Below are positions 35,604 through 57,197 of a DNA stretch of 64,000 bases, one piece after another. The notes under the pieces were generated by a model. It had not been told where the DNA came from. It worked only from the letters and a program-made list of their open reading frames with translations, and made no database searches. The first letter of the stretch is position 1. Every line of letters begins with the position of its first letter. The translations under genes and the position numbers were made by a program. This DNA comes from Skermanella mucosa (GTDB lineage Bacteria > Pseudomonadota > Alphaproteobacteria > Azospirillales > Azospirillaceae): contig NZ_CP086107.1 of the NCBI RefSeq assembly GCF_016765655.2, positions 496,001 through 560,000 of the forward strand, given 5' to 3'.

Positions 35604-37619
35604 ATGAGCACGAACAAGTTGATAGGAAAGCGCATCGCTGACGCGTTGCGCACCACCAACTCTGACGTACTCGCCGGAAGCCAATCTATAACTATGAATG
35701 CATGGGAAAGTTTTGTTTTAGGACGCACTGACCGGGTTCCGGCGGTGCGTAATGTCATCGCGAATTCTTGGATGCGCTGCCTAGGTGATGGTGTCAACCC
35801 ACATGGCTCGACGGCGCCATTGGTACCTTGCAGCGATATCGAGCTGGAAAGACAGCTTAATTGTGATTTGTTGCAGGCCGCCTCCGGCGTGCTGGCAGAA
35901 GCAGTCGATCTGTTGGCAGGCACAGGATCGCTCATGCTGATTACGAATGCCGATGGTGTCGTGCTTGAAGCCGTTGGTGATCTGCGGACGGTTAGCGCTG
36001 GGCAGGAAATTTGCCTAGGTCAAGGCGGGCACTGGAAGGAGAGCAATGCTGGCACCAATGGCATTGGCACAGCGCTCGCAGCAGGGCAACCAGTGTTGAT
36101 AAATGCGGCCGAACACTATTGCGAAGGCATCAAGAAGTGGAGTTGCGCTGGTGCGCCAATCCGCGATCCAATAGACGGAACTATTATCGGCTTGCTCGAT
36201 ATATCAGGACTAAAACAAACTTTTACTGTACAGGTTCTTGCCTTAACTACAATTGCAGCTCATGCCATTGAACGTAATATTGCGCAGCAGACAGAAATTA
36301 AGCATTTTCGCCTATTGGAAGCCTGTCTGGAGGAGTCCGCAAAATATGCAGAGGATGGCCTGATTGCATGTGATGCTAAAGGACGCGTGCTGCACGTCAG
36401 TCGCAAAGCGATACAATTACTTGAACGACAGTTCGGACCGGGCGTAGTGAACCTCAGGCGTGGGAACCGGATCTCCAATTTGCCCGGACTGGCGGAGGTG
36501 AGTGATTGTGCCACCAGTTTATTGCCTGAGCTACGAGCAGATTGGGTCAAGCCCCTGTTCGTAGACGGAAAACGCTGCGGCACACTACTTGTGATCCCAG
36601 GCACATCCGGGAGGCGGATTGCTGGTCGCGTCCGCTCCGTGCCACATGAGAGCGACCCTGGCCGTGCAGACTTCAATTGCATTATCGGGAACAGCCCGAG
36701 CATGCAAACCGTCATAGATCAAGCTCGCCGATTGGCATCTCTGTCTATCCCGGTCCTTATCGAGGGTGAAACGGGGGTCGGCAAAGAACTCTTTGCGCGG
36801 GCGATCCACGGCACCAGCGATGTGGCAGGCGGACCATTCGTTCCGTTCAACTGTGGCGCTGTTTCCAAGGAGATGTTGGCTAGTGAGCTATTCGGCTATG
36901 TCCGTGGAGCCTTCACGGGGGCAAGCACCGAAGGTCGCGTAGGACGTTTCGAGCTTGCTAATGATGGCGTACTGTGCTTGGACGAAATCGGTGAATTGCC
37001 TCTCGATCTGCAACCCTATCTTCTGCGCGTTCTAGAGGAAGGGATCATTTATCGTATTGGCGACAACACTCCCCGGCGGGTTAACGCCCGTCTTTTGGCA
37101 ATGACCAACCGAAACTTGCGCGAGGAAGTTGCAGCAGGGCGCTTCCGGCGGGATCTTTATTACCGGCTTAACGTGGTTAAATTGCACGTCCCTCCGCTCC
37201 GGAAGCGGGACGGAGATGTCGATCAGCTAATAGCCCACTTCAACCAAATAGTGGCCGATCGCTACAGCAGGGACCCTGTCCAGTTCACGGCCGAGACTAT
37301 GGATGCGCTCCGTCTCTATGCTTGGCCGGGCAATGTCCGGGAGGTAAGGAATCTGATGGAGCGACTGATTTTGTTGTCTTCTAAGAAAATCGTCGGTGTG
37401 GAAGATTTGCCGGAGGAACTGCGTGAAACAGTTGCTGAGACCGGATCTGCTAAACCGTTAGAAGGACCGGCAACACTTGAAATGACTGAGCGTAGGGTCA
37501 TAGAGGCGGCCGTTGCAGAAAGCCGGGGTAATATGACGGACGCGGCACGCGCATTGGGCATTTCCCGCAGTACCCTGTACCGGAAAATGAGTCAGTACGA
37601 GATTGATCGCGATAGTTGA
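35604..37619 (+). CDS. Sigma-54-dependent transcriptional activator, AcoR/MimR-like
   Basis: A 671-residue enhancer-binding protein. Residues about 85-230 form a GAF-type sensor (LNCDLLQAASGVLAEAVDLL; ESNAGTNGIGTALA; HYCEGIKKWSCAGAPI), followed by a PAS-like segment near 245-330. The AAA+ domain at 358-585 has Walker A GETGVGKE (388-395), the sigma-54-contacting GAFTGA loop (435-440), Walker B VLCLDE (456-461) and the arginine-finger stretch GRFRRDLYYRL. A Fis-type HTH (MTDAARALGISRSTLYRKM) ends the protein. The start is supported by GAGGGAGAG. The AcoR family responds to small ketones/alcohols, and the mycobacterial MimR regulates an acetone-inducible monooxygenase operon. It lies 16 kb from, and probably activates, the -24/-12 promoter at 53627. 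Its base composition is visibly less GC-rich than the plasmid backbone. Confidence 0.9.
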   Translation: MSTNKLIGKRIADALRTTNSDVLAGSQSITMNAWESFVLGRTDRVPAVRNVIANSWMRCLGDGVNPHGSTAPLVPCSDIELERQLNCDLLQAASGVLAEAVDLLAGTGSLMLITNADGVVLEAVGDLRTVSAGQEICLGQGGHWKESNAGTNGIGTALAAGQPVLINAAEHYCEGIKKWSCAGAPIRDPIDGTIIGLLDISGLKQTFTVQVLALTTIAAHAIERNIAQQTEIKHFRLLEACLEESAKYAEDGLIACDAKGRVLHVSRKAIQLLERQFGPGVVNLRRGNRISNLPGLAEVSDCATSLLPELRADWVKPLFVDGKRCGTLLVIPGTSGRRIAGRVRSVPHESDPGRADFNCIIGNSPSMQTVIDQARRLASLSIPVLIEGETGVGKELFARAIHGTSDVAGGPFVPFNCGAVSKEMLASELFGYVRGAFTGASTEGRVGRFELANDGVLCLDEIGELPLDLQPYLLRVLEEGIIYRIGDNTPRRVNARLLAMTNRNLREEVAAGRFRRDLYYRLNVVKLHVPPLRKRDGDVDQLIAHFNQIVADRYSRDPVQFTAETMDALRLYAWPGNVREVRNLMERLILLSSKKIVGVEDLPEELRETVAETGSAKPLEGPATLEMTERRVIEAAVAESRGNMTDAARALGISRSTLYRKMSQYEIDRDS

Positions 37620-37691
37620 TCCTTGTAGCGTTTCGGTCAGCAGTATGGGATGGCGGGGGTGACCGGGAGGGTACAGCGGGCCGGGTGAAGA

Positions 37692-37723
37692 TTTTTATTG
37701 ATTTCGGCCAGTTACGTTCATCG
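37692..37723. repeat. Scar of an IS21-type terminal repeat
   Basis: ATTGATTTCGGCCAGTT followed by GTTCATCG closely matches the right end of the IS21 element at 63385-63420 (complement), about 28 of 36 positions. No istAB genes are near. It sits between the activator gene and pyc, which converge here. Confidence 0.6.
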
Positions 37724-37754
37724 CATCTATGTGGCGCGATCCACGTAGATCGTT

Positions 37755-40700
37755 TTAAGGCTGCAGTGAAATGACGAGGAGTAAATCTTTGGCGTCGATC
37801 TGGTCGCCGACCTTGACTAGGACTTCGGCGATGGTTCCGTCCTTTTCCGCATGCAGCGCGGTTTCCATCTTCATAGCCTCGATGGAAAGCAGCACATCGC
37901 CCGTCTTGACAACCTGACCTGGGGTAATGAAGACGTGGGAGATGACGCCAGGCATTGGGGCTCCGAGATGGGCGTTATTGCCGGTTTCCGCCTTTCGTAC
38001 GGCCGAACCTATCGCGCCATGGGTACGGTCAGGCACCTTGATGCGGCGTGGCTGCCCGTTCAGTTCGAAGAAGACCGTGACCATGCCCTGAGCGTCCGTG
38101 CCGCTCATTGCCTGGTTGACGATGACCAGCGTCTTCCCCTTCTCGATCTCGGCGAGCAACTCTTCGCCGTCGCCAAGCCCGTAAAAATAGGCATGCGTCG
38201 GCAACACCGAGACGGGACCATAGGTATCGCTCGCCAGGGCGAAATCGGTGAACACCTTCGGGTACATGAGGTAGGAGGCGAGTTCGAAATCGTCGACCGC
38301 CCGCTCTAGCTTGGCTTCGATCGCTTTCCTTTCGGCGTCGAGATCGGCTTCAGCAAGCAGCGAGCCGGGACGGACCTTATAGGGCTTTTCGCCCTTCAGC
38401 GCCTTTTTCTGCAGCGCTTCCGGCCAGCCGTTCGGCGGCTGGCCGAGATCTCCCTTCAGCATCGAAATGACCGAGTCCGGAAAGGCGATATCTTTGGCGG
38501 GGTTTTCGACATCTGCGACCGTCAGATCCTGAGAGACCATCATCAGCGCCATGTCGCCGACCACCTTGGAGGATGGCGTGACCTTGACGATATCACCGAA
38601 CATCTTGTTGGCGTCCGCATAGGTCTGCGCCACCTGATGCCAGCGTGCATCAAGGCCGAGAGAGCGGGCTTGTTCCTTGAGATTGGTGAACTGGCCACCC
38701 GGCATCTCGTGCAGGTAGACTTCCGATGCCGGGCCCTTGAGATCGCTTTCGAAAGCCGCATATTGACCGCGAACCGCTTCCCAATAGAAGGAAATGCGGC
38801 GAATCCATTCCGTATCGAGGCCGGGGGCGCGTTCGGAGGTCGACAGCGCCTCGACAATCGAGCCGAGGCATGGCTGCGAGGTGTTGCCGGAAATGGCGTC
38901 CATTGCCGCATCCACCGCATCCACGCCCGCATCGACGGCGGCAAGCACGGTCGCGGCTGAAATGCCGGAGGTATCATGGGTGTGAAAATGAATCGGCAAG
39001 CTGGTCGCCTCGCGCAATGCCTTGAACAGCACACCCGCCGCAGCGGGTTTCAACAGGCCGGCCATGTCCTTGACGGCGATGATATGGGCGCCGGCCTTTT
39101 CCAGCTCTTCGGCTAGCCCGATATAATACTTGAGGTCGTATTTCGGGCGCGCGCTATTGAGGAGATCGCCGGTATAGCAGATCGCCGCTTCGCACAGCTT
39201 GTTCTCTTGCCTGATCGCATCCATGGAGACGCGCATGTTCTCGACCCAGTTGAGGCAGTCAAAAACGCGGAAGACGTCAATCCCACCACTGGCCGCTTGG
39301 CGGACAAAAAACTTGACGACATTGTCTGGATAATTGGTGTAACCAACACCATTCGCGCCGCGCAGCAGCATCTGCAGCAGGATATTCGGGGCGCCTTCAC
39401 GGATCATCGCCAGACGTTCCCATGGGTCTTCCGTGAGGAAGCGCATGGACACATCGAAGGTGGCGCCGCCCCAGCATTCGAGCGAGAAGAGGTTCGGCAG
39501 TGCGCGTGCATAAACGCCGGCGGCGCGAGCGATGTCATAAGTGCGCATGCGGGTCGCAAGCAGCGATTGGTGTCCGTCGCGCATCGTCGTGTCGGTCACT
39601 AGCAGGCGTTTCTGGCCGCGCATCCATTCGGCAAATTTTTGTGGGCCAAGGCTGTCCAGCAACTGTTTGGTGCCGTCTGGCACCAAACAGTTGCTATAGG
39701 GCAGCACGGGCTTGGTGGCGTGCAGCGAGGGCATCGGTCGCCCTTTGGTCTCAGGGTGACCGTTGACTGTCACGTCGGCCAGATAGGTGAGAAGCTTGGT
39801 GGCGCGGTCGGCCCGCTTCACCTGCGCGAAAAGCTCTGGCGTCGAATCGATGAAGCAGGTCGTGTAGCTGTTGTCGCCGAATTTCGGATGGGTAATGATC
39901 GCTTCGAGGAAGGTGAGGTTGGTCGCGACGCCACGGATGCGGAATTCACGCAGCGCCCGGTCCATGCGTCTGATCGCTTCCTCCGGGCTGCCACCCGATG
40001 CCGTAACCTTCTCCAGCAGCGGATCGTAATAGCGGGTGATGATCGCGCCTGTATAGGCCGTGCCGCCATCGAGGCGGATGCCGAAACCGGCAGCTGAGCG
40101 ATAAGCCGTGATGCGGCCATAGTCGGGAATGAAATTATGCTCCGGGTCTTCCGTAGTGATGCGACATTGCAGCGCGTGTCCATTGAGGTGGATATCTTCC
40201 TGTTTCGGCACGCCCGACTCCGGCATTCCGATGACCGCGCCCTCGAGAATGTGGATCTGCGCCTTGACGATATCGATGCCGGTCACGACCTCAGTGACAG
40301 TATGCTCGACTTGGATGCGTGGATTGACTTCGATGAAGTAGAATTTGCCAGTATCGGCATCCATCAGATATTCGACGGTGCCAGCCCCGACATAGTTCGT
40401 CGCCTCGGCGATCTTCAACGAATAAGTCGCTAGTTCCTGACGTTGCGCTTCCGAGAGATAGGGAGCGGGTGCTCGCTCTACGACCTTCTGGTTGCGGCGC
40501 TGGATGGAGCAATCGCGCTCGAACAGATGCACGACATTGCCATGAGTGTCGCCGAGAATTTGGCTTTCGACGTGGCGCGCGCGCTCGACCAGTTTTTCCA
40601 AATAGACCTCGTCCTTGCCGAAGGCAACCATGGCTTCGCGCTTGGCTTCCATCACCTCCTTTGCAAGATCCTTCGGATCGCGGATGGCACGCATGCCGCG

Positions 40701-41219
40701 GCCCCCGCCGCCCCAGGATGCCTTGAGCATCACAGGATAACCGATCTCTCCGGCCATGTGGGCAACCTCCGCCATGTCGTCCGGCAGAGGTTCTGTCGCA
40801 GGAATCACCGGCACGCCGACCGAAATCGCCAAGTTTCGGGCTGCGACCTTGTTGCCGAGCCGACGCATGGTATCCGGTGTTGGGCCGATGAAAATGAAGC
40901 CTGCATCGCTGCAGGCCTCGACGAATTCGGGGCTTTCCGATAGGAAGCCGTAGCCTGGATGGATCGCATCGGCGCAGGAAAGCCTAGCTACCCGGATCAC
41001 TTCGGAGATGGAGAGATAGCTCTCGATCGGCCCCATATCCTTGGAGAGATGCGGACCCCGGCCGACCTGGTAGCTTTCATCGGCCTTGAACCGATGTAGC
41101 GAAAGCTTGTCCTCTTCCGCCCATATGGCGACGGTCTTGATACCGAGTTCATTGGCGGCCCGAAACACGCGGATGGCGATCTCGGATCGGTTAGCAACGA
41201 GAATTTTTGAAATCGGCAA
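37755..41219 (-). CDS. pyc: Pyruvate carboxylase
   Basis: A 1154-residue single-chain biotin enzyme that carboxylates pyruvate to oxaloacetate. Order of domains: biotin carboxylase (ISKILVANRSEIAIRVFRAA; ATP-grasp loop KASWGGGGRGMR; EVNPRIQVEHTVTE), carboxyltransferase barrel (VTDTTMRDGHQSLLATRMR; IIAVKDMAGLLKP; HFHTHDTSG), and C-terminal biotinyl domain with the lysine in EAMKMET. Length and sequence are typical of rhizobial PycA. The TTG at 41219 is the likely start: AGGAGG lies 6-7 nt upstream, while an ATG at 41243 would place that site inside the coding sequence. It supplies C4 acids during growth on C3 substrates, which suits the neighbouring C3 pathway. Confidence 0.96.
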   Translation of the reverse strand: MPISKILVANRSEIAIRVFRAANELGIKTVAIWAEEDKLSLHRFKADESYQVGRGPHLSKDMGPIESYLSISEVIRVARLSCADAIHPGYGFLSESPEFVEACSDAGFIFIGPTPDTMRRLGNKVAARNLAISVGVPVIPATEPLPDDMAEVAHMAGEIGYPVMLKASWGGGGRGMRAIRDPKDLAKEVMEAKREAMVAFGKDEVYLEKLVERARHVESQILGDTHGNVVHLFERDCSIQRRNQKVVERAPAPYLSEAQRQELATYSLKIAEATNYVGAGTVEYLMDADTGKFYFIEVNPRIQVEHTVTEVVTGIDIVKAQIHILEGAVIGMPESGVPKQEDIHLNGHALQCRITTEDPEHNFIPDYGRITAYRSAAGFGIRLDGGTAYTGAIITRYYDPLLEKVTASGGSPEEAIRRMDRALREFRIRGVATNLTFLEAIITHPKFGDNSYTTCFIDSTPELFAQVKRADRATKLLTYLADVTVNGHPETKGRPMPSLHATKPVLPYSNCLVPDGTKQLLDSLGPQKFAEWMRGQKRLLVTDTTMRDGHQSLLATRMRTYDIARAAGVYARALPNLFSLECWGGATFDVSMRFLTEDPWERLAMIREGAPNILLQMLLRGANGVGYTNYPDNVVKFFVRQAASGGIDVFRVFDCLNWVENMRVSMDAIRQENKLCEAAICYTGDLLNSARPKYDLKYYIGLAEELEKAGAHIIAVKDMAGLLKPAAAGVLFKALREATSLPIHFHTHDTSGISAATVLAAVDAGVDAVDAAMDAISGNTSQPCLGSIVEALSTSERAPGLDTEWIRRISFYWEAVRGQYAAFESDLKGPASEVYLHEMPGGQFTNLKEQARSLGLDARWHQVAQTYADANKMFGDIVKVTPSSKVVGDMALMMVSQDLTVADVENPAKDIAFPDSVISMLKGDLGQPPNGWPEALQKKALKGEKPYKVRPGSLLAEADLDAERKAIEAKLERAVDDFELASYLMYPKVFTDFALASDTYGPVSVLPTHAYFYGLGDGEELLAEIEKGKTLVIVNQAMSGTDAQGMVTVFFELNGQPRRIKVPDRTHGAIGSAVRKAETGNNAHLGAPMPGVISHVFITPGQVVKTGDVLLSIEAMKMETALHAEKDGTIAEVLVKVGDQIDAKDLLLVISLQP

Positions 41220-41472
41220 AGCAGGCCTCCTGTGCCTGTGCATTCGTTTCCAAACTCCCGAGCGGCTTGCAACGGAGCCTTCGGGGTAAATCAGCTGCTG
41301 TTAGTCTCTATCGAAACAATTGCAGCTTCAGGTATTCGGATAGGGGTATAACGGTTGCAAGAAGGTGACGGGTCAAAAGGGCCAAGTGCTGGTCGATGGC
41401 AAGGGTAATCTGCTGAAGACAAAGGTTCCCTAGGCCAACATTCATCTGGGCCCGATGTCGACGTTCAACGAA

Positions 41473-41853
41473 CTACTTCGATTGTTTCTGCAAATAGGCG
41501 ATAATGTCCCGCCGTTGCTTCTCATTCTTGACGCCAGCAAAGGCCATTTTGTTACCGGCAATTTTGCCCTTCGGATCGGCGAGGAAGGTGTCAAGGTTTA
41601 CTTCATCCCAGGTGATTTGGGAATTCTTCACTGCCGCGGAGTACTGGAAGCCTTCCACCGAGCCGGCCTTGCGCCCGACGACGCTATGGAGATTTGGGCC
41701 GATGCGGTTGGGGCTACCTTTCTCAATAGTGTGGCAGGCCTTGCAGGCGTTGAACCCCTTCTCGCCGGCGGCGGCATCGCCTTCCGCCCAGGCGGGGCCT
41801 GTGCCGAGCGCGATGAGGTTCGCCACGCCGGCTGCTAGGATATATCGCTTCAT
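41473..41853 (-). CDS. Periplasmic class I cytochrome c (c550/c2 type)
   Basis: A 126-residue protein. The signal peptide (residues 1-23, ANLIALGTGPAWA) directs it to the periplasm. One haem site CKACH (about residue 37), RIGPNLHSVVGR, and a methionine ligand in NKMAFAGV mark a small soluble c-type cytochrome that shuttles electrons to a terminal oxidase. GGAG lies 8 nt before the ATG. It is 254 bp upstream of pyc and on the same strand. A role as acceptor for the periplasmic GMC dehydrogenase or other dehydrogenases nearby is plausible but not shown. Confidence 0.92.
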   Translation of the reverse strand: MKRYILAAGVANLIALGTGPAWAEGDAAAGEKGFNACKACHTIEKGSPNRIGPNLHSVVGRKAGSVEGFQYSAAVKNSQITWDEVNLDTFLADPKGKIAGNKMAFAGVKNEKQRRDIIAYLQKQSK

Positions 41854-42094: not shown

Positions 42095-43462
42095 CTAAAG
42101 ATCAATTTTCAAATTTTCTAAAGCTAACTTCCTATTCCGTGGCCAACTTGCAACGGATTCGGCAAATCCGGTATGGTTCTCCAACGCTTGCGGCAGTGGA
42201 CCGCCGGTCGCCCAGTCCAGCAGTTCGACCGTATGGACGATCGGGATCGACGTGCCCGATCCGATCTGGGTTATGCAGCCGATATTGCCCGCCGCGATCA
42301 CCTGCGGCTTGGTGCTCTCGATGTTGCGGACCTTGCGCTCGCGCAGCTCCCCCGCGATCTCCGGCTGGACCAGGTTGTAGATACCGGCGGAGCCGCAGCA
42401 CAGGTGCCCTTCAGGCACCTCGCGGATCTGGAACCCCGCCTTGCCCAGCAGCGAGCGCGGCGGCGTCTTGATCTTCTGGCCGTGCTGCATCGAACAGGCG
42501 GAGTGGTAGGCAACCACCTGCCCCGTCTCGACCACCGGCTCGCCAAGGCCAAGCTCCGCCATGAACTCGGTCACGTCCTTTGCCAGCGCCGAGATCCGCG
42601 CCGCCTTGTCCGCCATCTCCTTGTCCTCGCGGAACATGAAGCCGTAGTCCTTGACGGTCGTTCCGCAGCCGGACGTATTGATGACGACCGCGTCCAGCCC
42701 GCCCTTCTCGATCTCCCTGGTCCACGCCAGGATATTGGCGCGGGCATAGCCGTGGGCGTTGTCGGTCAGGCCCATGTGATGGGTCAGCGCGCCGCAGCAC
42801 CCGGCGCCCTTGGCGACCACCACCTCGACCCCGTGCCGGGTCAGCAGCCGCACCGTCGATTCGTTGATCGCCGTGTTCAGCACCTGCTGGGCGCAGCCGT
42901 TCAGGATCGCGACCCGCTTCCGCCGCGTCCCCTCCGCCGGGATCACCTGCGGCTTGTCCACGGGGCTGGGACCGGGGATCTTCTTCGGGGCCAGCGCCAG
43001 CATGCCCTTGAGCTTGGCCGGCATCACGCCGGCAACAGGCCGCCCGGCCTTGGCCGCCATCAGGGCCATCCGGAACAGGCCCGGACGCGGCAGCACCGTC
43101 GCCAGCATCTTGCGCATCAGGCGCTCGGAGGCAGGGCGGCGGTAGGTCTTCTCGATATGAGCGCGGCCATGGTCGACCAGATGCATATAGTGCACGCCGG
43201 ACGGACACGTGGTCATGCACGACAGGCAAGTCAGGCAGCGATCGATATGCTTGACCACCTGATCGGTCGCCGGCTTGTCGTTCTCCAGCATGTCCTTGAT
43301 CAGGTAGATCCGGCCCCGCGGGCTGTCCAATTCGTCGCCCAGCAGGGCATAGGTCGGACAGGTCGCGGTACAGAAGCCGCAGTGGACGCAGGCGCGCAGG
43401 ATCTTTTCGGATTCCCGCGTATCGGCGTCGGCAAGCTGGGCCAGGGAGAAGTTGGTCTGCAT
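42095..43462 (-). CDS. glcF: Glycolate/D-lactate oxidase iron-sulfur subunit GlcF
   Basis: A 455-residue protein with two N-terminal ferredoxin-type [4Fe-4S] motifs (CVHCGFCTATCP and CLTCLSCMTTCP). Two CCG domains follow (GCAQQVLN; GAGCCGALTHHMG; STSACSMQHG-like HSACSMQHGQ; HLCCGSAGIY). Residue patterns are those of GlcF, which passes electrons from the flavin subunits to the quinone pool or another carrier. Last gene of glcDEF, 14 bp after glcE. Confidence 0.95.
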   Translation of the reverse strand: MQTNFSLAQLADADTRESEKILRACVHCGFCTATCPTYALLGDELDSPRGRIYLIKDMLENDKPATDQVVKHIDRCLTCLSCMTTCPSGVHYMHLVDHGRAHIEKTYRRPASERLMRKMLATVLPRPGLFRMALMAAKAGRPVAGVMPAKLKGMLALAPKKIPGPSPVDKPQVIPAEGTRRKRVAILNGCAQQVLNTAINESTVRLLTRHGVEVVVAKGAGCCGALTHHMGLTDNAHGYARANILAWTREIEKGGLDAVVINTSGCGTTVKDYGFMFREDKEMADKAARISALAKDVTEFMAELGLGEPVVETGQVVAYHSACSMQHGQKIKTPPRSLLGKAGFQIREVPEGHLCCGSAGIYNLVQPEIAGELRERKVRNIESTKPQVIAAGNIGCITQIGSGTSIPIVHTVELLDWATGGPLPQALENHTGFAESVASWPRNRKLALENLKIDL

Positions 43463-43476
43463 GGCGGTTCTCCGCG

Positions 43477-44700: not shown

Positions 44701-44708
44701 GCCAGCCC

Positions 44709-46845: not shown

Positions 46846-47112
46846 TCAAGTTTCTTTAGGTTTATGTACTATAATCCTTGTATTAGGATGTCGCTTCTCG
46901 TTTACTTCCTTGAGTATGCCACTAATCTGATCAAGAAGTTCGTGGGCTTGATCTTTTGATACTTCGGCGTTTACGGGATTGACATCATCGTATTCTTGAT
47001 TGAGACCGATTAAAGCGGACATTATATATACGAATTCACTTGTTGAAAACTCAACAATGATGTTTTGACTGGCAACATCAGTTTCCGGATGTGTAACGTC
47101 AATAAGTCTCAT
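46846..47112 (-). CDS. Small hypothetical protein at the end of the mim operon
   Basis: The product is about 88 residues from an ATG at 47112 with GGAGG five bases upstream. The sequence (MRLIDVTHPETD...IIVEFSTSEFVYIMSALIGLNQEY; AEVSKDQAHELLDQISGILKEV) suggests one beta strand and two helices. No signal peptide or membrane segment. It is the last gene before the glc region, separated from the chaperonin gene by a hairpin (47137-47154). A role in the monooxygenase system is suggested only by position. Confidence 0.65.
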   Translation of the reverse strand: MRLIDVTHPETDVASQNIIVEFSTSEFVYIMSALIGLNQEYDDVNPVNAEVSKDQAHELLDQISGILKEVNEKRHPNTRIIVHKPKET

Positions 47113-49024: not shown

Positions 49025-49381
49025 TCACTCGTATTGGAGCGCGTCATCCATGTTGCCGAACAGCATGACCGTGTCGTCGTCGATCATGACCATGCGGCCG
49101 TAATGGGTGGAGGTGGAGATCTCGAACAGATGCGGGGTCATTTCACGCCCAAGGGCCTCGCTGATCTCGTTCATCTTGAACTCGATCCTGCCTTCGCCAT
49201 CGATACGAATCATGGCAGGTAGATAGGTTACCTTGATGCCGGGCTTTTCCTCCATCACTTCGGCAATGCAACGAGCCTCGACACTATCGTTCATCGTCAC
49301 CCCGCACTGGTGTGAGACCGTGCCGTCCAAAGTAATGTTATCGATCGACTTGAATAACTGCTGTCCCGTGGTCACGCTCAT
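49025..49381 (-). CDS. mimD: Coupling/regulatory protein of the diiron monooxygenase
   Basis: A 118-residue protein of the MmoB/DmpM type: VGVTMNDSVEARCIAEVMEE-like (CGVTMNDSVEARCIAEVME), VTYLPAMIRIDGEGRIEFKM and LGREMTPHLFEISTSTHYGRMV. These small proteins bind the hydroxylase and tune oxygen activation. It is the fourth gene of the operon, 27 bp after mimC. Family length is typical. Confidence 0.94.
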   Translation of the reverse strand: MSVTTGQQLFKSIDNITLDGTVSHQCGVTMNDSVEARCIAEVMEEKPGIKVTYLPAMIRIDGEGRIEFKMNEISEALGREMTPHLFEISTSTHYGRMVMIDDDTVMLFGNMDDALQYE

Positions 49382-49408: not shown

Positions 49409-50554
49409 TCATTCGGCAGCGGGGGCAACATCCGCGTCACGCGCCGGACCGGAGATGTTGGGCACCATGATGTCGATGCCGATCTCGCGGCAGATTGCCT
49501 CAACGCGGTTCTTGGCCTGAGCGAAGGCGTCGGTGAACTGCGCCACCTTGACCCGAGGATGCGACCAGATCGGCTGGAGCTGCAGGGCCGCCTTGACGAT
49601 GAGGGTACAGTGCCAAGAGAACCATTCCTGCATAATCGCCCGATTGTGCAGGCCCTGAGTGGGGTCTTGGGCCAACAAAGCGAACAACTCGACAGTGTTA
49701 GCCAGATTTCGCTCGTAATCCGCTTCTGCTGCCGAGACTACTGTCGGTGTGGAGAAATCGTTGTGCGCTGCTGCGGTCTGCATGACGAAGCCGCTACGAA
49801 ATAGTTCGCCGATCAGCGGCTCAAACACGACATTGATCGCGAAATACTGCTCCAGGTAGTCCGATGCACCGCGGATGTGCTCGACCGCCTCACGGCAGCC
49901 CTGCCAGATCGGGTCTTCCAGCCAATGCTTCTTGCCGGCATCGGCATCGAACATGCCAATGTCCATGCCGATCTCAGCCAGATACAGAGTCAGATCCTGT
50001 GCGAAGCGCAGCTTGTACGATGAGTTGGTCAATATGGCATTGTTGACCATCTGGGTGTAACCATACCGCTGGGCATGCATCAGCGCCGTGCCCAGGCCGT
50101 ATTCAGCATGCTTGAAGGCGCCGACATGGTCCTGCAGAACCTTCACCCAGGCTTGGTCAAAGCGCTTTGGCGCACCCGCCCGGCGGGCATTTTCGACCAC
50201 ATTCTGAATCATGCCGACAATGGTCGATTGGCGCTGGTAATGGGTACGTTCCCATTCCTGGTCGGGAGCACGGAATTTGTGCCAGTCGGAACTCTTCAGG
50301 CGCGTCCAGTCTTTGGAGTAAGTTGGCACACCATCGCCAAAGGACAGTATCCAGTTCTGGAGCAGATAGCGTTCCGGATCTGGCTGAACGTCCAGCGTCA
50401 TGTCCTCATAGTGGGTAGCCCTGCGGCCTTTGGGCTCGAAGTAGTTATACTGGCGACTGTCCCAGCCGGGGAACTTCTTGGCGCCGGCCGCTCCGGATCT
50501 CACTTCCTGAACGGGTATCGGTTCCTGAGCGGGGATTGCTTCCTGAACGGACAT
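49409..50554 (-). CDS. mimC: Diiron monooxygenase small (beta) hydroxylase subunit
   Basis: A 381-residue beta subunit of the soluble diiron monooxygenase hydroxylase (alpha2-beta2 or with gamma). Features: RRATHYEDMTLDVQPDPERYLLQNW, TYSKDWTRLKSSDWHKFRAPD, EYGLGTALMHAQRYGYTQMVNN and a Pro-rich N-terminus. It has no iron ligands, as expected. It is packed between the reductase and coupling protein genes (gaps of 27 bp). A run of repeated QE/PV residues at the N-terminus (AIPAQEPIPVQEV) looks like a simple repeat. Confidence 0.94.
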   Translation of the reverse strand: MSVQEAIPAQEPIPVQEVRSGAAGAKKFPGWDSRQYNYFEPKGRRATHYEDMTLDVQPDPERYLLQNWILSFGDGVPTYSKDWTRLKSSDWHKFRAPDQEWERTHYQRQSTIVGMIQNVVENARRAGAPKRFDQAWVKVLQDHVGAFKHAEYGLGTALMHAQRYGYTQMVNNAILTNSSYKLRFAQDLTLYLAEIGMDIGMFDADAGKKHWLEDPIWQGCREAVEHIRGASDYLEQYFAINVVFEPLIGELFRSGFVMQTAAAHNDFSTPTVVSAAEADYERNLANTVELFALLAQDPTQGLHNRAIMQEWFSWHCTLIVKAALQLQPIWSHPRVKVAQFTDAFAQAKNRVEAICREIGIDIMVPNISGPARDADVAPAAE

Positions 50555-50581: not shown

Positions 50582-51637
50582 TCAGTGTGTGGCAGGGGTA
50601 AATTTATCGAAGTAGATCCGGTCTGATTCGACCCCGGCTACCTGCATTACAGGCAGAACGGCATCGATCATCGGCGGCGGTCCGCACGAGTAGGCATCGG
50701 CCTGGTGAACCTCATCAAGTGTGGCCAGAGAGCGCCGCACCACATCGTGGATGAAGCCGGTTTCGCCCGACCAACCGTCGCCGTCCTGCGCATGAGAGAG
50801 TGCGGGAATGAACGCAAAGTCGGGCATCCGCCCAGCCAAGTCGGCGAAAAGATCAAGATGGAACAGGTCACTCTTGGAACGCGCACCGTAGAAGAACCGG
50901 ACTGGGCGGGTCTCGCCGCTCTCCGCTTGATCTAGCAGGATCGATAGCAGAGGTGACATACCGGAGCCGCCGCCAACCAGCAACATCGGCCCCTCGCGTC
51001 CCTCGCGCCGGAAACAGGTGCCATAGGGACCGCGGATCGACACCTGGTCGCCTACCTTGAGGCCACCATCAAGCTCCGAGGAGAAGGCCCCTTGCGGATA
51101 TTTTTTGATGATGAAGCGCAGTCGCTGCTGCTCACTCGGCGGATTAGCCATGGAGAAGGAGCGGGTGATACCTTTGCCCGGCAGAGTGATATCGACATAC
51201 TGCCCAGCCCAGAACTTGATCGGCTGCTCGACTTCGATCTCGAGGAGCCGGATGTCCTGAGTAAGACTTTCAATCCGGGTTAGGTGAGCGGCATAGTCCT
51301 TGACTGGGATCGAGCGCGACAGCAGATCCTCGTCATAACTCAGCAGCTCGACTTCGATGTCGCTGTAGGCGAGCGTCCGGCACAATAGAATGTGATTAGT
51401 CTCGCGCTCGGGGTCGGACAGAGCGAAAGTCGAATATTTCATCATCTCGACATCGCCATCGGTCAGGATGCACTTGCAAGCGGAACACTGTCCTTCCTTG
51501 CAGCCGTGCATGAGCGAAATGCCTTGGCGGAAAGCGGCATCAAGGACCGTTTCACCCTCCTCGACCTCCATTTCAATGCCGACCGGCTCAAGTCGAACTT
51601 TATGGACAGCAGACTTTGGCATGATGTTCTGGATCAT
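50582..51637 (-). CDS. mimB: Monooxygenase reductase (2Fe-2S / FAD / NADH)
   Basis: A 351-residue reductase. The N-terminal plant-type [2Fe-2S] domain has the cysteines in GCKEGQCSACKC and LLCRT. The FAD site is ITRSFSMAN and the NAD(P)H domain LVGGGSGMSPLLSILLDQ and SCGPPPMIDA. It passes electrons from NADH to the hydroxylase. The gene is located second in the operon, between alpha and beta subunits, which is the order of mim/prm clusters. Its start is at 51637 and 113 bp separate it from mimA. Confidence 0.95.
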   Translation of the reverse strand: MIQNIMPKSAVHKVRLEPVGIEMEVEEGETVLDAAFRQGISLMHGCKEGQCSACKCILTDGDVEMMKYSTFALSDPERETNHILLCRTLAYSDIEVELLSYDEDLLSRSIPVKDYAAHLTRIESLTQDIRLLEIEVEQPIKFWAGQYVDITLPGKGITRSFSMANPPSEQQRLRFIIKKYPQGAFSSELDGGLKVGDQVSIRGPYGTCFRREGREGPMLLVGGGSGMSPLLSILLDQAESGETRPVRFFYGARSKSDLFHLDLFADLAGRMPDFAFIPALSHAQDGDGWSGETGFIHDVVRRSLATLDEVHQADAYSCGPPPMIDAVLPVMQVAGVESDRIYFDKFTPATH

Positions 51638-51750: not shown

Positions 51751-53415
51751 TTAGATGCGCCGAACCGTGAAGCCCTTCCGGTACTCCTCAATGTGCTGCT
51801 GGCGCTGCTCCGGGGCCATTTGGCGAAGCTTAACCAATGGGCTCTCGAGCGTATAGCCGCGGACGTGATCGAGCGTCCACATATCCTTTTCCTCAAAGGA
51901 CAGGTGCGGCTGTGCAATCAGCGTCTTACCATCGGACCGCACGAAGCCCATGTCCTGGATCACGTCGGCGATATCCCAGCCGTGATAGACTTCTTCCCAC
52001 TGACGCCGGCCGGAAAAACGGCCCATTGCCGGAGTCGGGCGTCCCTTGTACTCAGAAGCGAACGCCTCCTTGTGGGTCCAACGATCGACCTCGTGCGCAT
52101 AAGTATAGAGCTGCCCGTCAACCTCATCAACCATGAAGTCTTCGCGAATGACGCAAGGTACCAAGTTGGACCAGCAGCGGTGTGGATAAACGTAACCAGT
52201 ATCGGCAAAGGTGATGGGTACGCTTCCCGGCTTGCTTAGCTTAGCATAGTTTTCCCACCATGCGCCGTATTCATCATACCAGCCCGGATACTTATGTTCG
52301 AACCACTCGAAATCACGCTCGTCAAGCGCTCCGATTCGCCAAAAATTGGCCCACCAGCCGGCTGAGAAGAACTGAGCCACCTTGTGGACATAGCCCTTCT
52401 TAACGATGCTGTCGAACGCCTCATGGACATCGTCGTGGTGGATCTTGATGCCATACTTCTCCAGCGGTAGCATATAGGTCCGGTAATAATCCTCGTAAAT
52501 CCACCGATGCCACAACTCGGCATAGGATTCCTTGTTCTTGTCCCGATTCTTGGTGCCGTATTCGATGATGGTACCAATCGCGGCATCTACGATGGCGTGG
52601 TTCTGCCAGAACGCGTAACGAACATCACGTTCGAGTAGCATATGATTGTCCGGTTCCTTGAGAACCGACATCAGCATTGAATGGCCGTTGCCGATGTGCC
52701 GGGATTCGTCGCTCTGGACCGACAGGAACACGGTCGGCAGAGCATAATCGCCGTTGCGAGCAGCTTCGGACGGCATAGCGACGAATAACGTGTTCGTAAA
52801 GGCAGTTTCGGCAACCACCTGGAGGTAGATATTGGATGAGGTAATGGCGTCTCCGGTTATAAAAGCTTCACCAAACTGCCGCCCGATGGTAGTGGCATAG
52901 CACTTGCCGAAAGCCTTTTCAGTAATATCAAACCCGGCTGGGTCGATATAATTTTCCATGTACCATTTCTTCAAGTTCATCTGAATGGTTGAGTGCCGGA
53001 ACTCATCAACCATCTGCATTGTGAACCCGGTCCGCAGTTCATCGCCCGGGGCGAGTTGGCCGAGCATGGCCATGGCGCGGGCTGCGGAGATCTCCGGAAA
53101 TGGAATGATCGCCAAGAACAGCTTCATCCACTCGACCCACTGGGGCTCGACGTTTCGGAACATATCGCCGCGCAAGGCTGCATCCAAGGCGCCATAAACA
53201 CGGTTGTCTTTCTCCTCCTCCATTGGGAAGTAAGAACGCAGGACCTGCTTCATAGGGTCCCGAGGAGCCTTGGTGATCTTGTAGTCCGTCGGGAAGGTCA
53301 TTGCCTCCTTGACGTAGGATGGCGTCCAGCCTAGGTCGGCAACACGGCGTGCGGCCTCGCTGATGCTGATACCCTTTTGACTTGTGATTTTGTTGAGCGT
53401 CAACCCATCAGGCAT
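51751..53415 (-). CDS. mimA: Diiron monooxygenase large (alpha) hydroxylase subunit, propane/acetone type
   Basis: A 554-residue alpha subunit. Expected diiron ligands are visible: E108 in IIPFPEISAAR, E138 and H141 in VDEFRHST, E203 in VVAETAFTN, and E237 and H240 in SDESRHIG. The sequence context (LRSYFPMEEEKDNRVYGA; FEWFEHKYPGWYDEYG; MGRFSGRRQWEEVYHG) is closest in my recollection to mycobacterial MimA / propane-monooxygenase (group 5/6 SDIMO) enzymes. Those act on propane, acetone, phenol or other small substrates; the actual substrate here must be tested. First gene of the operon, with a 212-bp leader from the -24/-12 promoter. Confidence 0.95.
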   Translation of the reverse strand: MPDGLTLNKITSQKGISISEAARRVADLGWTPSYVKEAMTFPTDYKITKAPRDPMKQVLRSYFPMEEEKDNRVYGALDAALRGDMFRNVEPQWVEWMKLFLAIIPFPEISAARAMAMLGQLAPGDELRTGFTMQMVDEFRHSTIQMNLKKWYMENYIDPAGFDITEKAFGKCYATTIGRQFGEAFITGDAITSSNIYLQVVAETAFTNTLFVAMPSEAARNGDYALPTVFLSVQSDESRHIGNGHSMLMSVLKEPDNHMLLERDVRYAFWQNHAIVDAAIGTIIEYGTKNRDKNKESYAELWHRWIYEDYYRTYMLPLEKYGIKIHHDDVHEAFDSIVKKGYVHKVAQFFSAGWWANFWRIGALDERDFEWFEHKYPGWYDEYGAWWENYAKLSKPGSVPITFADTGYVYPHRCWSNLVPCVIREDFMVDEVDGQLYTYAHEVDRWTHKEAFASEYKGRPTPAMGRFSGRRQWEEVYHGWDIADVIQDMGFVRSDGKTLIAQPHLSFEEKDMWTLDHVRGYTLESPLVKLRQMAPEQRQQHIEEYRKGFTVRRI

Positions 53416-53626: not shown

Positions 53627-53642
53627 AGCAATCCGCGTGCCA
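53627..53642 (-). promoter_or_regulatory. Sigma-54 (-24/-12) promoter of the mim operon
   Basis: On the minus strand the sequence TGGCACG-CGGA-TTGCT matches the RpoN consensus TGGCACG-N4-TTGCW without a mismatch and with exact GG to GC spacing. It lies about 212 bp before the mimA start. An AcoR-type sigma-54 activator is encoded in the window. Confidence 0.85.
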
Positions 53643-53692: not shown

Positions 53693-53741
53693 TGTGTCAA
53701 AATGAGACATTTATCTGTGTCATGCGTCTCAGAATGAAACA
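53693..53741 (-). promoter_or_regulatory. Candidate upstream activator sites of the mim promoter
   Basis: Half-sites TGTGTCA (53693-53699 and 53716-53722), TGAGACA (53703-53709) and TGAAACA (53735-53741) form inverted pairs, 50-110 bp upstream of the promoter core. That distance suits enhancer binding by a sigma-54 activator. The surrounding 100 bp are AT-rich. Confidence 0.6.
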
Positions 53742-54003: not shown

Positions 54004-54399
54004 TTACCGGTAACGACCGTGCTTCTGCAGAACCTCGATTTTGTAGCCGTCAGGGTCTTGGACGAAGAAGAATTTCGCCATCAGGGAGCCGTCTCGGAAA
54101 AATTCCTTGATGTCCGTTGGGTTGTAGCCGAGTTCCCGGTGTCGCCGGTGCTCGGCTTCCAAGTCGTCCACCACGACGGCGATATGGCCGTAGCCGTCAC
54201 CGTGGGTATAGGGCTCTTTTCGGTCATGGTTTATGGTCAACTCCAACTCGGCGCTGCTCGCCTCGTCCAGCAGGTAGACTAAGGTGAATCCATCAAACGG
54301 GAACCGCGCTGCCTCCTTGAAGCCGAAGGCGTTCGCATAGAATTGTTTCGACCGGTCTTCCTCGAGAACCCGGATCATCGCATGGATGAACTTAGCCAT
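54004..54399 (-). CDS. VOC-family protein, lactoylglutathione-lyase (glyoxalase I)-like
   Basis: A 131-residue protein with the glyoxalase fold repeated: MAKFIHAMIRVLEEDRSKQFYANAFGF and YGHIAVVVDDLEAEHRR. Candidate metal ligands are H5, the Glu in LELTINHD, H in YGHIAVVV and Glu in YKIEVLQ. Those four positions match a metal-dependent glyoxalase I, which converts the methylglyoxal-glutathione adduct to lactoylglutathione. The start at 54399 has GGAGAGAG upstream. It is 19 bp from the small secreted gene and in the same direction as mim. Dioxygenase-type VOC members are an alternative. Confidence 0.85.
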   Translation of the reverse strand: MAKFIHAMIRVLEEDRSKQFYANAFGFKEAARFPFDGFTLVYLLDEASSAELELTINHDRKEPYTHGDGYGHIAVVVDDLEAEHRRHRELGYNPTDIKEFFRDGSLMAKFFFVQDPDGYKIEVLQKHGRYR

Positions 54400-54418: not shown

Positions 54419-54766
54419 TTATTTCGGCTGCTCACCCGTTTTCGGGCGGGCACCAGCTGCGGCGTCCATGTCGGTCGCGCCCTTGCCAGGCTTCAATAAC
54501 TTTCCTTGCTGTTCCTGGGAGTTGTCGGTCTTCGAGGGCGCCGGTGGGCCCTCCGTAGTCGTGCCGGGAGTTCCAGGGCCCGGCGAGGACCCGGTCACGG
54601 CGGCTCCCGGAGCGACCTGACCGGCACCCTGCGCCGGTAGCGGCTCAGTTGACCGAGGCGAGGTCTGCGTCGTAGTTTGCTGCGCCGATGCCGTTCCCGC
54701 GCTGCCGTTCACGGCAGACAACAAGGTCAGCACACCCGTTAATGCAATCAGTCGGCTCTTGGTCAT
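54419..54766 (-). CDS. Small secreted Pro/Gly/Thr-rich protein
   Basis: A 115-residue protein. The signal peptide (LIALTGVLTLLSAVNGSAGTASA) is followed by a disordered low-complexity region rich in Pro, Gly, Thr and Ser and by a charged tail. The start has a strong GGGAGG. It precedes the VOC gene by 19 bp. No enzymatic domain; a periplasmic or envelope accessory role is possible. Similar small disordered proteins accompany GMC-type dehydrogenases in some bacteria, but I cannot confirm homology here. Confidence 0.7.
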   Translation of the reverse strand: MTKSRLIALTGVLTLLSAVNGSAGTASAQQTTTQTSPRSTEPLPAQGAGQVAPGAAVTGSSPGPGTPGTTTEGPPAPSKTDNSQEQQGKLLKPGKGATDMDAAAGARPKTGEQPK

Positions 54767-55039: not shown

Positions 55040-55047
55040 TTCCTCGG

Positions 55048-56616
55048 TCAGATTTCCTTTTTGCCCATCTGGTTGGCGATATATTCGGCCTGCCGGATAG
55101 CGAGCGTCACAATCGTCAGCGTCGGGTTCTCTGCGGCCCCGGTCGTGAACTGACTGCCGTCAGAGATAAACAGATTCTTCACATCCCAAGTCTGGCCCCA
55201 CTTATTGACGACGCCGTCTCGAGCGTTAGCACTCATGCGATTGGTGCCAAGATTGTGCGTCGAGGGGTAGGGCGGCGTTTCGTACACCTCTTGGGCTCCC
55301 GCCGCCTTGTACACCTCCGTGCCCTGCTTGTAGGCATGGCTACGCATAGCAATGTCGTTGGGGTGATCGTCGAAATGCACATTCGGTATAGGCATTCCGA
55401 ACTTGTCCTTCTCGCTCCCGTGCAGCGTCACTCGGTTGGTCTCGCGCGGCATGTCCTCACCGACGATCCACATACCGGCCATATTGGAATAGTTTTCCAT
55501 CTTGTGCGTGAACTCGCTGCCCCATGCGCCGGGATCGAGGAAAGCGGCCATAAAGGGCAAACCGAGTGAGAGCGTCTCCATCTCATAGCCACCGGCGAAG
55601 CCGCGCTCGGGCCGGTGTCCGGCCTCGTCGCGAATGATGCCAGCCATCGTTGTGCCGCGGAACATGTGCACGGGCTGGTCAAACGCAGCGTAGACTGTGC
55701 CGGTCACGTGCCGCATGTAGTTACGCCCTACTTGGCCGGAACTGTTGGCAAGGCCGTCTGGGAACTTGGCTGAAGCCGAGTTCAAAAGAAGGCGAGGGCT
55801 TTCGATGGAATTGCCAGCGACACAGACGACCCGCGCCTTCTGCAAATGCTGCTGGCCATCCTTGGATGCATAGAGCACACCGCTGACCTTACCGGCTGCA
55901 TTATGCTGAATCTGTAGGACTTGGCATTCACTCCTCAGCTCCAGTTTGCCGGTCTCCAGTGCGGCTGGGATCTCAGTATTGAGCGTGCTCCACTTCGCCC
56001 CGCTTTTGCAGCCTTGAAAACAGAAGCCAATCTGCTGGCAACTTGGACGGTCGTGCCTAGGCACGCTGTTGATAGCCATGTGCCCGGTACTGACTTCCTT
56101 ATACCCGAGCCGCTTCGCACCCGTGTACATGACCTTGAAGTTGTTATTACCCGGCAGGCCAGGGATGCCGTTAGTTCGTGTCACGCCCATTTTGTCCTCG
56201 GCCCTTGCATAATAGGGCTCGAGTTCAGCAAGTGTGACGGGCCAGTCAAGCAGGTTAGCGCCCTGTATCTCGCCGAAGTTCGTTTTGCTTCTGAATTCAT
56301 GCTCTTGGAAGCGGAGAGAAGCTCCAGCCCAGTGCGTACTCGTGCCGCCTACAGTCTTGCAGATCCAAGCCGGAAGGTTGGGAAAGTCACGCGCGATTCG
56401 CCAGCTTCCCGAGGTAGTGCGCTTGTCTAACCAGGCGAGCTGGGCGAAGCTTGCCCACTCGTCGTTGACGAAGGTGTCAATGCTTTCCTGTCCCCCAGCC
56501 TCGAGAAGTACAACGCTGATGCCTTTTTGGCAAAGCTCATTGGCGAGCGTGCCGCCACCGGCTCCGGAGCCGATGATAACGACTACCCCGTCGTCTTTGA
56601 GATCAAATGTTGCCAT
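55048..56616 (-). CDS. GMC-family oxidoreductase (gluconate-dehydrogenase-type flavoprotein subunit)
   Basis: A 522-residue FAD protein. The N-terminal Rossmann motif is VVIIGSGAGGGTLANELCQKG. The middle has GGTSTHWAGASLRF, GYKEVSTGHMAINS and CFQGCKSGAKWS (an arrangement typical of gluconate/sorbitol dehydrogenase alpha subunits). The C-terminal GMC signature includes THNLGTNRMSAN and GQTWDVKNLFISDGSQFTTGAAENPTL, holding the catalytic His and Asn. It has no signal peptide of its own, so export together with the adjacent Tat subunit is likely. It is 20 bp downstream of that subunit. Such enzymes oxidise alcohols or sugars in the periplasm and pass electrons to a cytochrome c; the substrate here is unknown but 2-propanol or acetol are reasonable candidates. 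Confidence 0.9.
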   Translation of the reverse strand: MATFDLKDDGVVVIIGSGAGGGTLANELCQKGISVVLLEAGGQESIDTFVNDEWASFAQLAWLDKRTTSGSWRIARDFPNLPAWICKTVGGTSTHWAGASLRFQEHEFRSKTNFGEIQGANLLDWPVTLAELEPYYARAEDKMGVTRTNGIPGLPGNNNFKVMYTGAKRLGYKEVSTGHMAINSVPRHDRPSCQQIGFCFQGCKSGAKWSTLNTEIPAALETGKLELRSECQVLQIQHNAAGKVSGVLYASKDGQQHLQKARVVCVAGNSIESPRLLLNSASAKFPDGLANSSGQVGRNYMRHVTGTVYAAFDQPVHMFRGTTMAGIIRDEAGHRPERGFAGGYEMETLSLGLPFMAAFLDPGAWGSEFTHKMENYSNMAGMWIVGEDMPRETNRVTLHGSEKDKFGMPIPNVHFDDHPNDIAMRSHAYKQGTEVYKAAGAQEVYETPPYPSTHNLGTNRMSANARDGVVNKWGQTWDVKNLFISDGSQFTTGAAENPTLTIVTLAIRQAEYIANQMGKKEI

Positions 56617-56636
56617 GGTGTCCTCCGTCTCCCCAT

Positions 56637-57197
56637 TCAGCCTGTGAACGCCGGCGGACTTGCCTCGGCATCCGGCTCCACCGTCCAGCCCGCATCCTGA
56701 AATCCTCGGAACAGGTAGCCGCCCTGCTCGGCGGAGCTGCCCTGATAGCCAAAGGTGGGCCAAATGTTCTTGTTGTTATACAGGGCTACGACAGTGTGTC
56801 CGCGCAAGGTCTGGAAGAACTTGCCGGCCTCGATACGCTTCAGTGCATCGAGCTGATAGCCCTTGGACAGAGTGATCCACGGCATGCCATAGGCGCTGTC
56901 GAGGTCGGCGATGCCTGTCTTGACCAGAGTCATCAACTCCGGACTGGCCGCCATTTTGGCGTCGAATGCCTCGACTACCTCGGCGTAGTAGATATCGCCC
57001 AGCATCTCATGGGGATAAAGGTGCCGCGCCACCTTGAGTAGCACCTCCGCCTCACGCTGCGGCAACGTCTGGAGCGTCATAGCCCACGCGCCATTCGATG
57101 CCAGTAGTGTTGTTGCACCTGCGAGCACGACGACGCTGGCCGCGGCGGTGCCGGCACTGCGGATAAACTCCCGCCGGTTCAGGATGCGCTTCGCCAT
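56637..57197 (-). CDS. Tat-exported gluconate 2-dehydrogenase subunit 3-like protein
   Basis: A 186-residue protein from the ATG at 57197. The N-terminus contains a Tat motif (NRREFIRSAG) and a hydrophobic stretch ending GAWA. The body (LQTLPQREAEVLLKVARHLYPHEML; VVALYNNKNIWPTFGYQGSSAEQGGYLFRGFQDAGW) matches the small gamma subunit of membrane-bound gluconate-type dehydrogenases, which escorts the flavoprotein through the Tat system. First gene of a two-gene operon with the GMC subunit. Confidence 0.9.
   Translation of the reverse strand: MAKRILNRREFIRSAGTAAASVVVLAGATTLLASNGAWAMTLQTLPQREAEVLLKVARHLYPHEMLGDIYYAEVVEAFDAKMAASPELMTLVKTGIADLDSAYGMPWITLSKGYQLDALKRIEAGKFFQTLRGHTVVALYNNKNIWPTFGYQGSSAEQGGYLFRGFQDAGWTVEPDAEASPPAFTG

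Follow-up and report, generated by a model that had tools for sequence, protein, structure and literature searches.

A replicon-borne island of Skermanella mucosa joins mimABCD to a GMC-glyoxalase operon in a candidate catabolic unit for three-carbon ketones

Introduction

The described gene clusters closest to the one examined here come from Methylocella and Methylacidiphilum. Our subject is an island of Skermanella mucosa that combines the monooxygenase genes mimABCD with genes for a GMC-type dehydrogenase, a glyoxalase I-like VOC protein, glcDEF and pyruvate carboxylase; it lies in a stretch of 64,000 nucleotides (the window; positions 496001-560000 of contig C2, NZ_CP086107.1, in genome G000). 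In Methylocella, the propane monooxygenase (PrMO) cluster comprises Msil_1651-1648 with Msil_1643 and Msil_1641, and deletion of the GMC gene is reported to make acetol accumulate and to abolish growth on acetone and 2-propanol (PMC7364539), genetics that place the GMC enzyme at acetol oxidation. That report's assumption that the GMC enzyme forms NADH derives from automatic annotation, and a Tat-exported, quinone-reducing GMC enzyme has been proposed elsewhere (PMC8630023). Methylacidiphilum strains IT6 (PMC8630023) and SolV (PMC12235487) are described as carrying gmcAB, gloA, glcD and glcF in one acetone-induced cluster, with a proposed route from acetone through acetol, methylglyoxal and lactate to pyruvate. 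These clusters have a particulate copper monooxygenase, PMO3, where the window has Mim, and phosphoenolpyruvate synthase (ppsA) where the window has pyruvate carboxylase; glcE is not named in the consulted portions of these reports. Mycobacterial MimABCD is stated to convert acetone to acetol (PMC8764830; PMC7176365).

A preliminary description of the island, made from its sequence, had linked these genes in a chain from hydrocarbon or ketone to oxaloacetate and named no published cluster with the full combination. The chain had in fact been proposed for Methylocella (PMC7364539) and for Methylacidiphilum (PMC8630023; PMC12235487); the full combination of genes appears in no title or abstract opening that we found in the open-access literature on mim, Azospirillum or Skermanella propane use, and GMC acetol dehydrogenase. 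With the Methylocella cluster, whose gene order we read in M. tundrae (L164) and M. silvestris TVC (L043), the island shares mimABCD, a GroEL-like chaperonin, a sigma-54 regulator, a cytochrome c, a VOC protein and a GMC enzyme with its small subunit, as well as the proposed acetone-to-lactate route. The gene order differs, and Methylocella has a ribbon-helix-helix gene that was not found in the window. The Methylocella lactate dehydrogenase is reported to lie elsewhere in the genome (Msil_2429-2431; PMC7364539), whereas glcDEF is part of the Skermanella island, and neither glcDEF nor pyc was found in the 10-16 kb of Methylocella flanks that we read. Plasmid mim clusters of Azospirillum (for example on pAB510c, L163) share the regulator, groEL, mimABCD, cytochrome c, VOC, gmcB and gmcA, with sigma-54-type promoters on both operons, but in these the GMC operon is divergent from mimA, the regulator directly follows groEL, and neither glcDEF nor pyc was found. 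The route is thus known in outline, and the window holds an unusually complete, pieced-together form of it.

Results

A Mim-type monooxygenase beside a GMC-VOC operon

The genes named in the preliminary description are all open frames at the positions it gave, and profile matches agree with their assignments, several of them below cut-offs. Transcription on the minus strand runs through gmcB, gmcA, a small open reading frame (ORF) and the VOC gene, and then through mimA, mimB, mimC, mimD, groEL, ORFs of 88 and 60 amino acids (aa), glcD, glcE, glcF, cyc and pyc; the regulator gene (35604-37619, plus strand) faces them, so that glcDEF, the cytochrome c gene and pyc sit between groEL and the regulator. 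Coordinates are window positions; apart from the regulator gene, the genes of the island are on the minus strand. Because the NCBIfam scores of MimB, MimD, GlcD, VOC and the cytochrome fall below curated cut-offs, the exact gene names rest in part on gene order.

The large and small hydroxylase subunits, mimA (51751-53415; 85% identical to Methylocella) and mimC (49409-50554), both match the Phenol_Hydrox family PF02332. Together with an MmoC-like reductase, mimB (50582-51637; 251 bits against a cut-off of 500), and an MmoB-type effector, mimD (49025-49381; PF02406), they form the A-B-C-D order of Mim/Prm-type clusters. For MimA, NCBIfam gave no match at E ≤ 1e-3. MimD scores 117 bits against the equivalog cut-off of 150 (NF045941), which leaves the substrate class that goes with this model unsecured. 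The (D/E)E-x-RH motif in the large subunit binds the diiron center, and both DEFRH and DESRH can be read, translating by eye, in mimA. Its solved relatives are methane monooxygenase alpha chains and toluene and phenol enzymes. A GroEL-like chaperonin (47190-48830; profile matches) completes the cluster.

We compared the proteins of the window, by tblastn, with the best 80 of 585 confirmed MimA loci and their 10-kb flanks; many of these 80 named mim loci are kin. Most keep the A-B-C-D order, with MimB at 78, MimC and MimD at 77 each and the chaperonin at 74. A GMC gene is present at 18 and a VOC gene at 22, with both at 16, so that VOC accompanies GMC at 16 of 18 loci. A different mim architecture (for example L165 and L167) shares mimABCD, the GroEL-like chaperonin, the sigma-54 regulator and often the 60-aa ORF, but has an amidohydrolase and an iron-sulfur assembly gene between mimD and groEL and an alcohol dehydrogenase (ADH) nearby. 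Its amidohydrolase occurs at 52 of the 80 loci, none of which has GMC (Fisher test, 4e-11), although two plasmid clusters outside the set, L166 and L168, carry both. An ADH gene lies at 1 of the 18 GMC-bearing loci versus 54 of the 62 others, and two ADH queries found no match in the window.

S. mucosa has a mim cluster of that other architecture too. A second copy on its chromosome, C1 (C1:4599183-4600844, MimA 88% identical; locus L124, C1:4593183-4613182), lies with ADH, amidohydrolase and iron-sulfur assembly genes, so that two different mim systems occur in one cell. The four other genomes of the genus have one mim copy each, and the ADH-amidohydrolase-assembly gene order was read at three of the five chromosomal loci (L122, L124 and L125). 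In a MimABC tree of 84 rows with all three proteins at 80% coverage (a quick search with SH-aLRT support and no bootstrap; L034 and L035 were omitted because their genomes are those of L125 and L126), the window groups with eight Azospirillum, two sphingomonads and three Bradyrhizobium (SH-aLRT 100), apart from the five chromosomal copies. This separation led us to reject the idea that the window's mim genes are a recent copy of the chromosomal ones. The GMC architecture is not confined to one Mim clade, since Methylocella and Beijerinckia fall on a separate branch.

The GMC operon consists of gmcB (56637-57197), whose product has a twin-arginine-like start and matches Gluconate_2-dh3 and TAT_signal only below threshold; gmcA (55048-56616), which matches GMC oxidoreductases; a small ORF with a signal-like start and no Pfam match (54419-54766); and the VOC gene (54004-54399; GloA-like at 8e-40, 136 bits against a cut-off of 165, with matches to GloA structures). 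GmcA is 72-73% and VOC 67-68% identical to their counterparts in Methylocella clusters with the same genes. An oxygenase thus adjoins gmcAB and a gloA-like gene, as in acetol-route three-carbon clusters. The best solved relatives of GmcA are the large subunits of fructose and glucose dehydrogenases (1.8e-46 and 2.1e-46), in which a set of cysteines holds an iron-sulfur cluster; C193, C199 and C203 of GmcA align with these and are kept in all 38 rows (this alignment and that of VOC include near-duplicate rows). These cysteines, the small subunit with its Tat-like start and the cytochrome genes at 13 of the 18 named GMC clusters make GmcAB likely to be a cytochrome-linked periplasmic dehydrogenase, with electrons probably passing to cytochrome c and not to NAD. 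The three-subunit fructose/glucose dehydrogenase type has a multihaem cytochrome subunit. The island cytochrome (41473-41853) is a protein of 126 aa with a signal-like start and a single CxxCH motif, CKACH (PF00034; c550-like at 120 bits against 240), so that GmcAB appears to resemble this type in its working but is not classed with it. VOC keeps the glyoxalase I ligands: of 44 aligned rows, all have H6, E53 and H72, and 43 have E122. Among solved structures, the closest relative of VOC is lactoylglutathione lyase 4mtq.

GMC-VOC operons also occur on their own. GmcA matches at E ≤ 1e-120 were found in 22 of 385 genomes of the class, and we read one place per genome in 20 of these (G155 and G364 were left out) over stretches of 7-20 kb. 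Among the 20 loci, gmcB is present in 18, VOC in 15 (with just 30-32% identity for two of them) and mim in 1. S. mucosa itself has a second VOC-gmcB-gmcA set on the chromosome (near C1:3718579-3721188; GmcA 74%), in a stand-alone locus (L204, G000:C1:3710000-3729999) that also has a ribbon-helix-helix gene; similar mim-free sets occur in other Alphaproteobacteria. Ribbon-helix-helix genes precede VOC in several GMC loci (a cluster of seven loci, three members of which are Pfam-confirmed, as is the similar gene of L204; neighbors were called with a gene caller tuned to high GC that called almost no genes in L217). Genes of this kind also follow the regulator in Azospirillum, Methylocella and Methylibium clusters, and none was found in the window at E ≤ 1e-6. 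At L223:3064-7047, a FAD_binding_4/FAD-oxidase_C gene directly precedes gmcB-gmcA, with no VOC found there. The GMC-VOC operon is thus portable and has been recruited by mim clusters in different orientations, and mim with GMC/VOC is, from these comparisons, a well-supported recurring unit.

Predicted sigma-54 control of two operons

The regulator, with GAF, Sigma54_activat AAA and Fis-type HTH_8 domains (Pfam), shares 57-63% identity with its counterpart in Azospirillum mim clusters. Motif scans predict two exact sigma-54 promoters in the window, one with exact -24/-12 elements before mimA (53628-53642) and one before gmcB (57539-57553), both on the minus strand and each with an enhancer-like inverted repeat 37-137 bases upstream. 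Two such repeats, TGTCTCA-N3-TGAGACA, precede mimA (53693-53709 and 53725-53741), where similar repeats are found at all eight named Azospirillum loci, and one precedes gmcB (57605-57621). A promoter-repeat pair arose in none of 300 dinucleotide shuffles. Each of the eight named Azospirillum GMC loci has, for both of its divergent operons, a repeat with two mismatches or fewer and a promoter with one or none, and the repeats are common to the two operons. Of the 18 named GMC loci, 17 have such a promoter before mimA and 12 have one before the GMC operon. A scan of 20 more GMC loci, 19 of them lacking mim, considered exact matches only and gave a promoter in a single locus, within a GMC gene. 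Promoter pairs in the window that might serve joint induction by three-carbon compounds precede mimA and gmcB only; a one-mismatch promoter lies 698 bases before pyc, without a repeat. Terminator-like and sigma-70-like sites between 35000 and 54950 are no more numerous than expected by chance.

Origins of glcDEF and pyc

Downstream of groEL lie glcD (44709-46196; FAD subunit, a near full-length match to GlcD models that misses both equivalog cut-offs, 711 against 897 and 535 against 568), glcE (43477-44700; NF008439, 298 against 284) and glcF (42095-43462; an iron-sulfur subunit of the glycolate/D-lactate dehydrogenase type, NF008434, 474 bits against 333). We corrected the likely starts of glcD, glcE and cyc to 46196, 44700 and 41853. 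Over positions 42182-46196, the DNA is 94% identical to the glc locus of another genome of the genus, G078, and 85% identical to S. mucosa's own chromosomal copy; the closer match to G078 points to another Skermanella-like source for the glcDEF piece and led us to reject an internal duplication of the chromosomal operon.

Lactate-dehydrogenase-type genes, which also mark acetol-route three-carbon clusters and which we take glcDEF to represent, lie near 4 of the 80 named mim loci: 3 of the 18 with GMC versus 1 of the 62 others (p = 0.034, kinship not corrected). Two sphingomonads, L033 and L036, encode a fused FAD/Fe-S protein (987 aa in the first, 979 aa in the second) between groEL and the regulator, the same interval that glcDEF occupies in the window; its NCBIfam scores (best GlcD 190 bits of 568, YdiJ 159 of 1350) do not discriminate D-lactate from other substrates. 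Methylibium (L101; locus L200) has, among the matches listed, a second glcDEF after the regulator, and L062 has glcE and glcF only, with GMC absent. Because such genes recur in related clusters, the D-lactate-to-pyruvate step that the preliminary description assigned to GlcDEF gains support, although no glcDEF was found in the Azospirillum clusters that we read; these comparisons lend the step moderate support as a member of the unit. The same description had noted that no glyoxalase II gene is seen in the island. A genome search with TIGR03413 gave five places, all on C1, one of them above cut-off (C1:2610136-2610888), and none is on C2.

The pyc gene (37755-41243; TIGR01235, 1950 bits against a cut-off of 1114) encodes the only full-length pyruvate carboxylase in the genome. 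None of the four other genomes of the genus has a match at E ≤ 1e-200; 55 genomes of the class do, and the nearest other protein is 78% identical and comes from a different family, on a 29-kb contig without a mim match. We therefore rejected a displaced housekeeping gene of the genus. Both glcDEF and pyc appear from these comparisons to be imports. The place of Pyc in the unit, put forward in the preliminary description, is weakly supported.

Setting of the island

Contig C2 measures 668,738 bases; the whole genome comes to 7.84 Mb in five contigs. C2 is probably a plasmid or second replicon, since a Rep3-type replication initiator above Pfam cut-offs is encoded at 5801-7396 on the minus strand. 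Transposase genes flank the island on both sides, at 24072-25697 and 57748-63699 (IS66; DDE_Tnp_1, ISL3-type, and IS21-type IstB with its partner), and the first of the latter group begins about 550 bases from gmcB. Elsewhere in the window are genes for a PIN protein of the TPR-GreAB-C-PIN type (22938-23852) near a 1047-aa protein with weak TPR matches (26514-29657; both on the minus strand), an RTX-repeat protein (3229-4341), an enolase-superfamily (MR_MLE) enzyme (16268-17755) and a PEP-CTERM protein (30237-31010).

The three small ORFs and the promoter sites were absent from the preliminary list. No match was found for the 88-aa ORF (46846-47112). The 60-aa ORF (46356-46538), with no Pfam match at E ≤ 1, occurs at 47 of the 80 named mim loci and adjoins the chromosomal mim copy of S. 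mucosa too; 32 of these 47 loci have a WD40-repeat gene, versus 1 of the 33 loci without the ORF. Its product is a candidate companion of the monooxygenase. In one genome of the Azospirillum-like genus g3 (G035:C7:503267-506946), mimA is split in two, and its first piece contains a stop.

Discussion

Our analysis suggests, with reasonable though far from complete confidence, that the island is a replicon-borne, regulator-controlled catabolic unit for three-carbon ketones, most likely an acetone (perhaps propane) unit of the published kind, extended by glcDEF, the cytochrome and pyc. Two sigma-54 operons, mimABCD-groEL and gmcB-gmcA-(small ORF)-VOC, would be turned on by the activator. The diiron monooxygenase, aided by its own GroEL-like chaperonin, would hydroxylate acetone to acetol and may oxidize propane as well. 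An exported GMC dehydrogenase, in which GmcA is carried by the Tat-signal subunit GmcB, would oxidize acetol to methylglyoxal and pass electrons to a c-type cytochrome. Glyoxalase I, together with the chromosomal glyoxalase II, would convert methylglyoxal to D-lactate, GlcDEF would yield pyruvate, and pyruvate carboxylase would yield oxaloacetate; glcDEF, cyc and pyc may be transcribed with the rest. Acetone carboxylase (PF08882) was found in none of the five genomes of the genus, with controls silent, and the model itself works, since it matches 14 of 190 genomes of the class. For the linked chain as first described, the mim-GMC-VOC part stands on its recurrence, on the promoters of both operons here and in Azospirillum, and on the Methylocella genetics; glcDEF and full-length pyc were not found in the Azospirillum clusters read.

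Several observations weigh against this reading. The repeat motif was defined from mimA itself, so that only gmcB is an independent match. Taken alone, neither element exceeds chance: the 4 promoters in the window at one mismatch or fewer were reached by 11 of 100 shuffles and the 3 repeats at three or fewer by 22 of 100. No promoter was found before the GMC operon at 6 of the 18 named GMC loci (two Methylocella, Beijerinckia, Pandoraea, Azohydromonas and Methylibium). Strict coupling is disfavored by three Bradyrhizobium in the window's mim clade (L038, L040 and L041), whose 10-kb flanks gave no match to GMC, VOC or the regulator, and the GMC-VOC operon is mostly mim-free, so its substrate need not come from Mim. 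For acetone to acetol in Methylocella, cytochromes P450 and not PrMO were proposed in PMC7364539. No promoter-repeat pair precedes glcD, cyc/pyc or the regulator; glcDEF was not found in the Azospirillum clusters read; and full-length pyc beside mim is a single case, found neither at the 80 named loci (where the 10-kb flank is shorter than the window's mim-pyc distance) nor in a wider reading of 21 Azospirillum and Skermanella loci plus 19 extension stretches. The preliminary description had held that independent occurrence of mim, glc and pyc in related strains would undo the link, and the outcome is mostly against pyc and mixed for glc.

These last points would also fit a unit made of mim and GMC/VOC only, with glcDEF, cytochrome c and pyc as passengers between groEL and the regulator that serve glycolate use and general anaplerosis. 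S. mucosa has a second glcDEF on its chromosome, and glcD-type genes are common (67 of 82 genomes of the family at E ≤ 1e-150). Yet glcDEF is co-directional downstream of groEL in the interval used by the fused dehydrogenase of the two sphingomonads, Methylibium has its second glcDEF just after the regulator, both glcDEF and pyc appear to be imports, and the Methylacidiphilum acetone-induced cluster is described as containing glcD and glcF (PMC8630023; PMC12235487); we consider passengers doubtful, though a serious contender. An island for growth on propane, in which Mim makes 2-propanol and the GMC enzyme oxidizes this to acetone before the remaining steps, would suit the name and order of the genes, which match propane monooxygenase clusters, and it has been suggested that the GMC enzyme may also oxidize 2-propanol (PMC8630023). 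Such a dual role was judged unlikely in PMC12235487, however, and the closely related PrMO of Methylocella is reported to make mostly 1-propanol (PMC7364539). That product, and the lack of a match in the window to the two ADH queries, make the entry of propane through 2-propanol weak. Because no ADH match was found in the island, in contrast to most mim loci without GMC, acetone fits better than propane; we regard a propane island as unlikely.

The spread of GmcA through the class, the single locus with mim among the 20 GMC loci read and the second set on the chromosome would be expected if the GMC-VOC operon were a general module for handling hydroxyketones and methylglyoxal that was recruited next to mim and serves many substrates. 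Against this general role stand the sigma-54-type promoters, which seem to have been gained in the window's mim clade and have one exact counterpart, inside a GMC gene, among the other GMC loci, and we find it rather improbable. Diiron monooxygenases are promiscuous, and the solved relatives of MimA act on methane, toluene and phenol, so that the substrate could instead be an alkene, an ether or an aromatic compound whose product VOC detoxifies with glutathione. The glyoxalase I ligands kept by VOC, and the lack of an epoxide-handling gene among the island's profile matches, make this very unlikely.

Returning to the catabolism of three-carbon ketones, we tentatively put forward a bolder version. 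The island may be a nearly self-contained, replicon-borne acetone-to-oxaloacetate unit in which Mim fills the gap that the Methylocella route leaves at acetone hydroxylation, and in which acetol is oxidized in the periplasm by a cytochrome-linked instead of an NAD-linked step. Its mim/GMC core, with Azospirillum-like kin, would have been joined by glcDEF from another Skermanella-like source and by a pyc new to the genus, beside an older chromosomal mim system with ADH.

The locus unites steps that are scattered or unassigned in the Methylocella work, and it makes the acetone-to-acetol step directly testable. It further shows that clusters of this kind have taken up lactate-dehydrogenase-type genes in different lineages. 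If acetol oxidation by the GMC enzyme feeds cytochrome c instead of NAD, the energy yields in the published Methylocella model would change.

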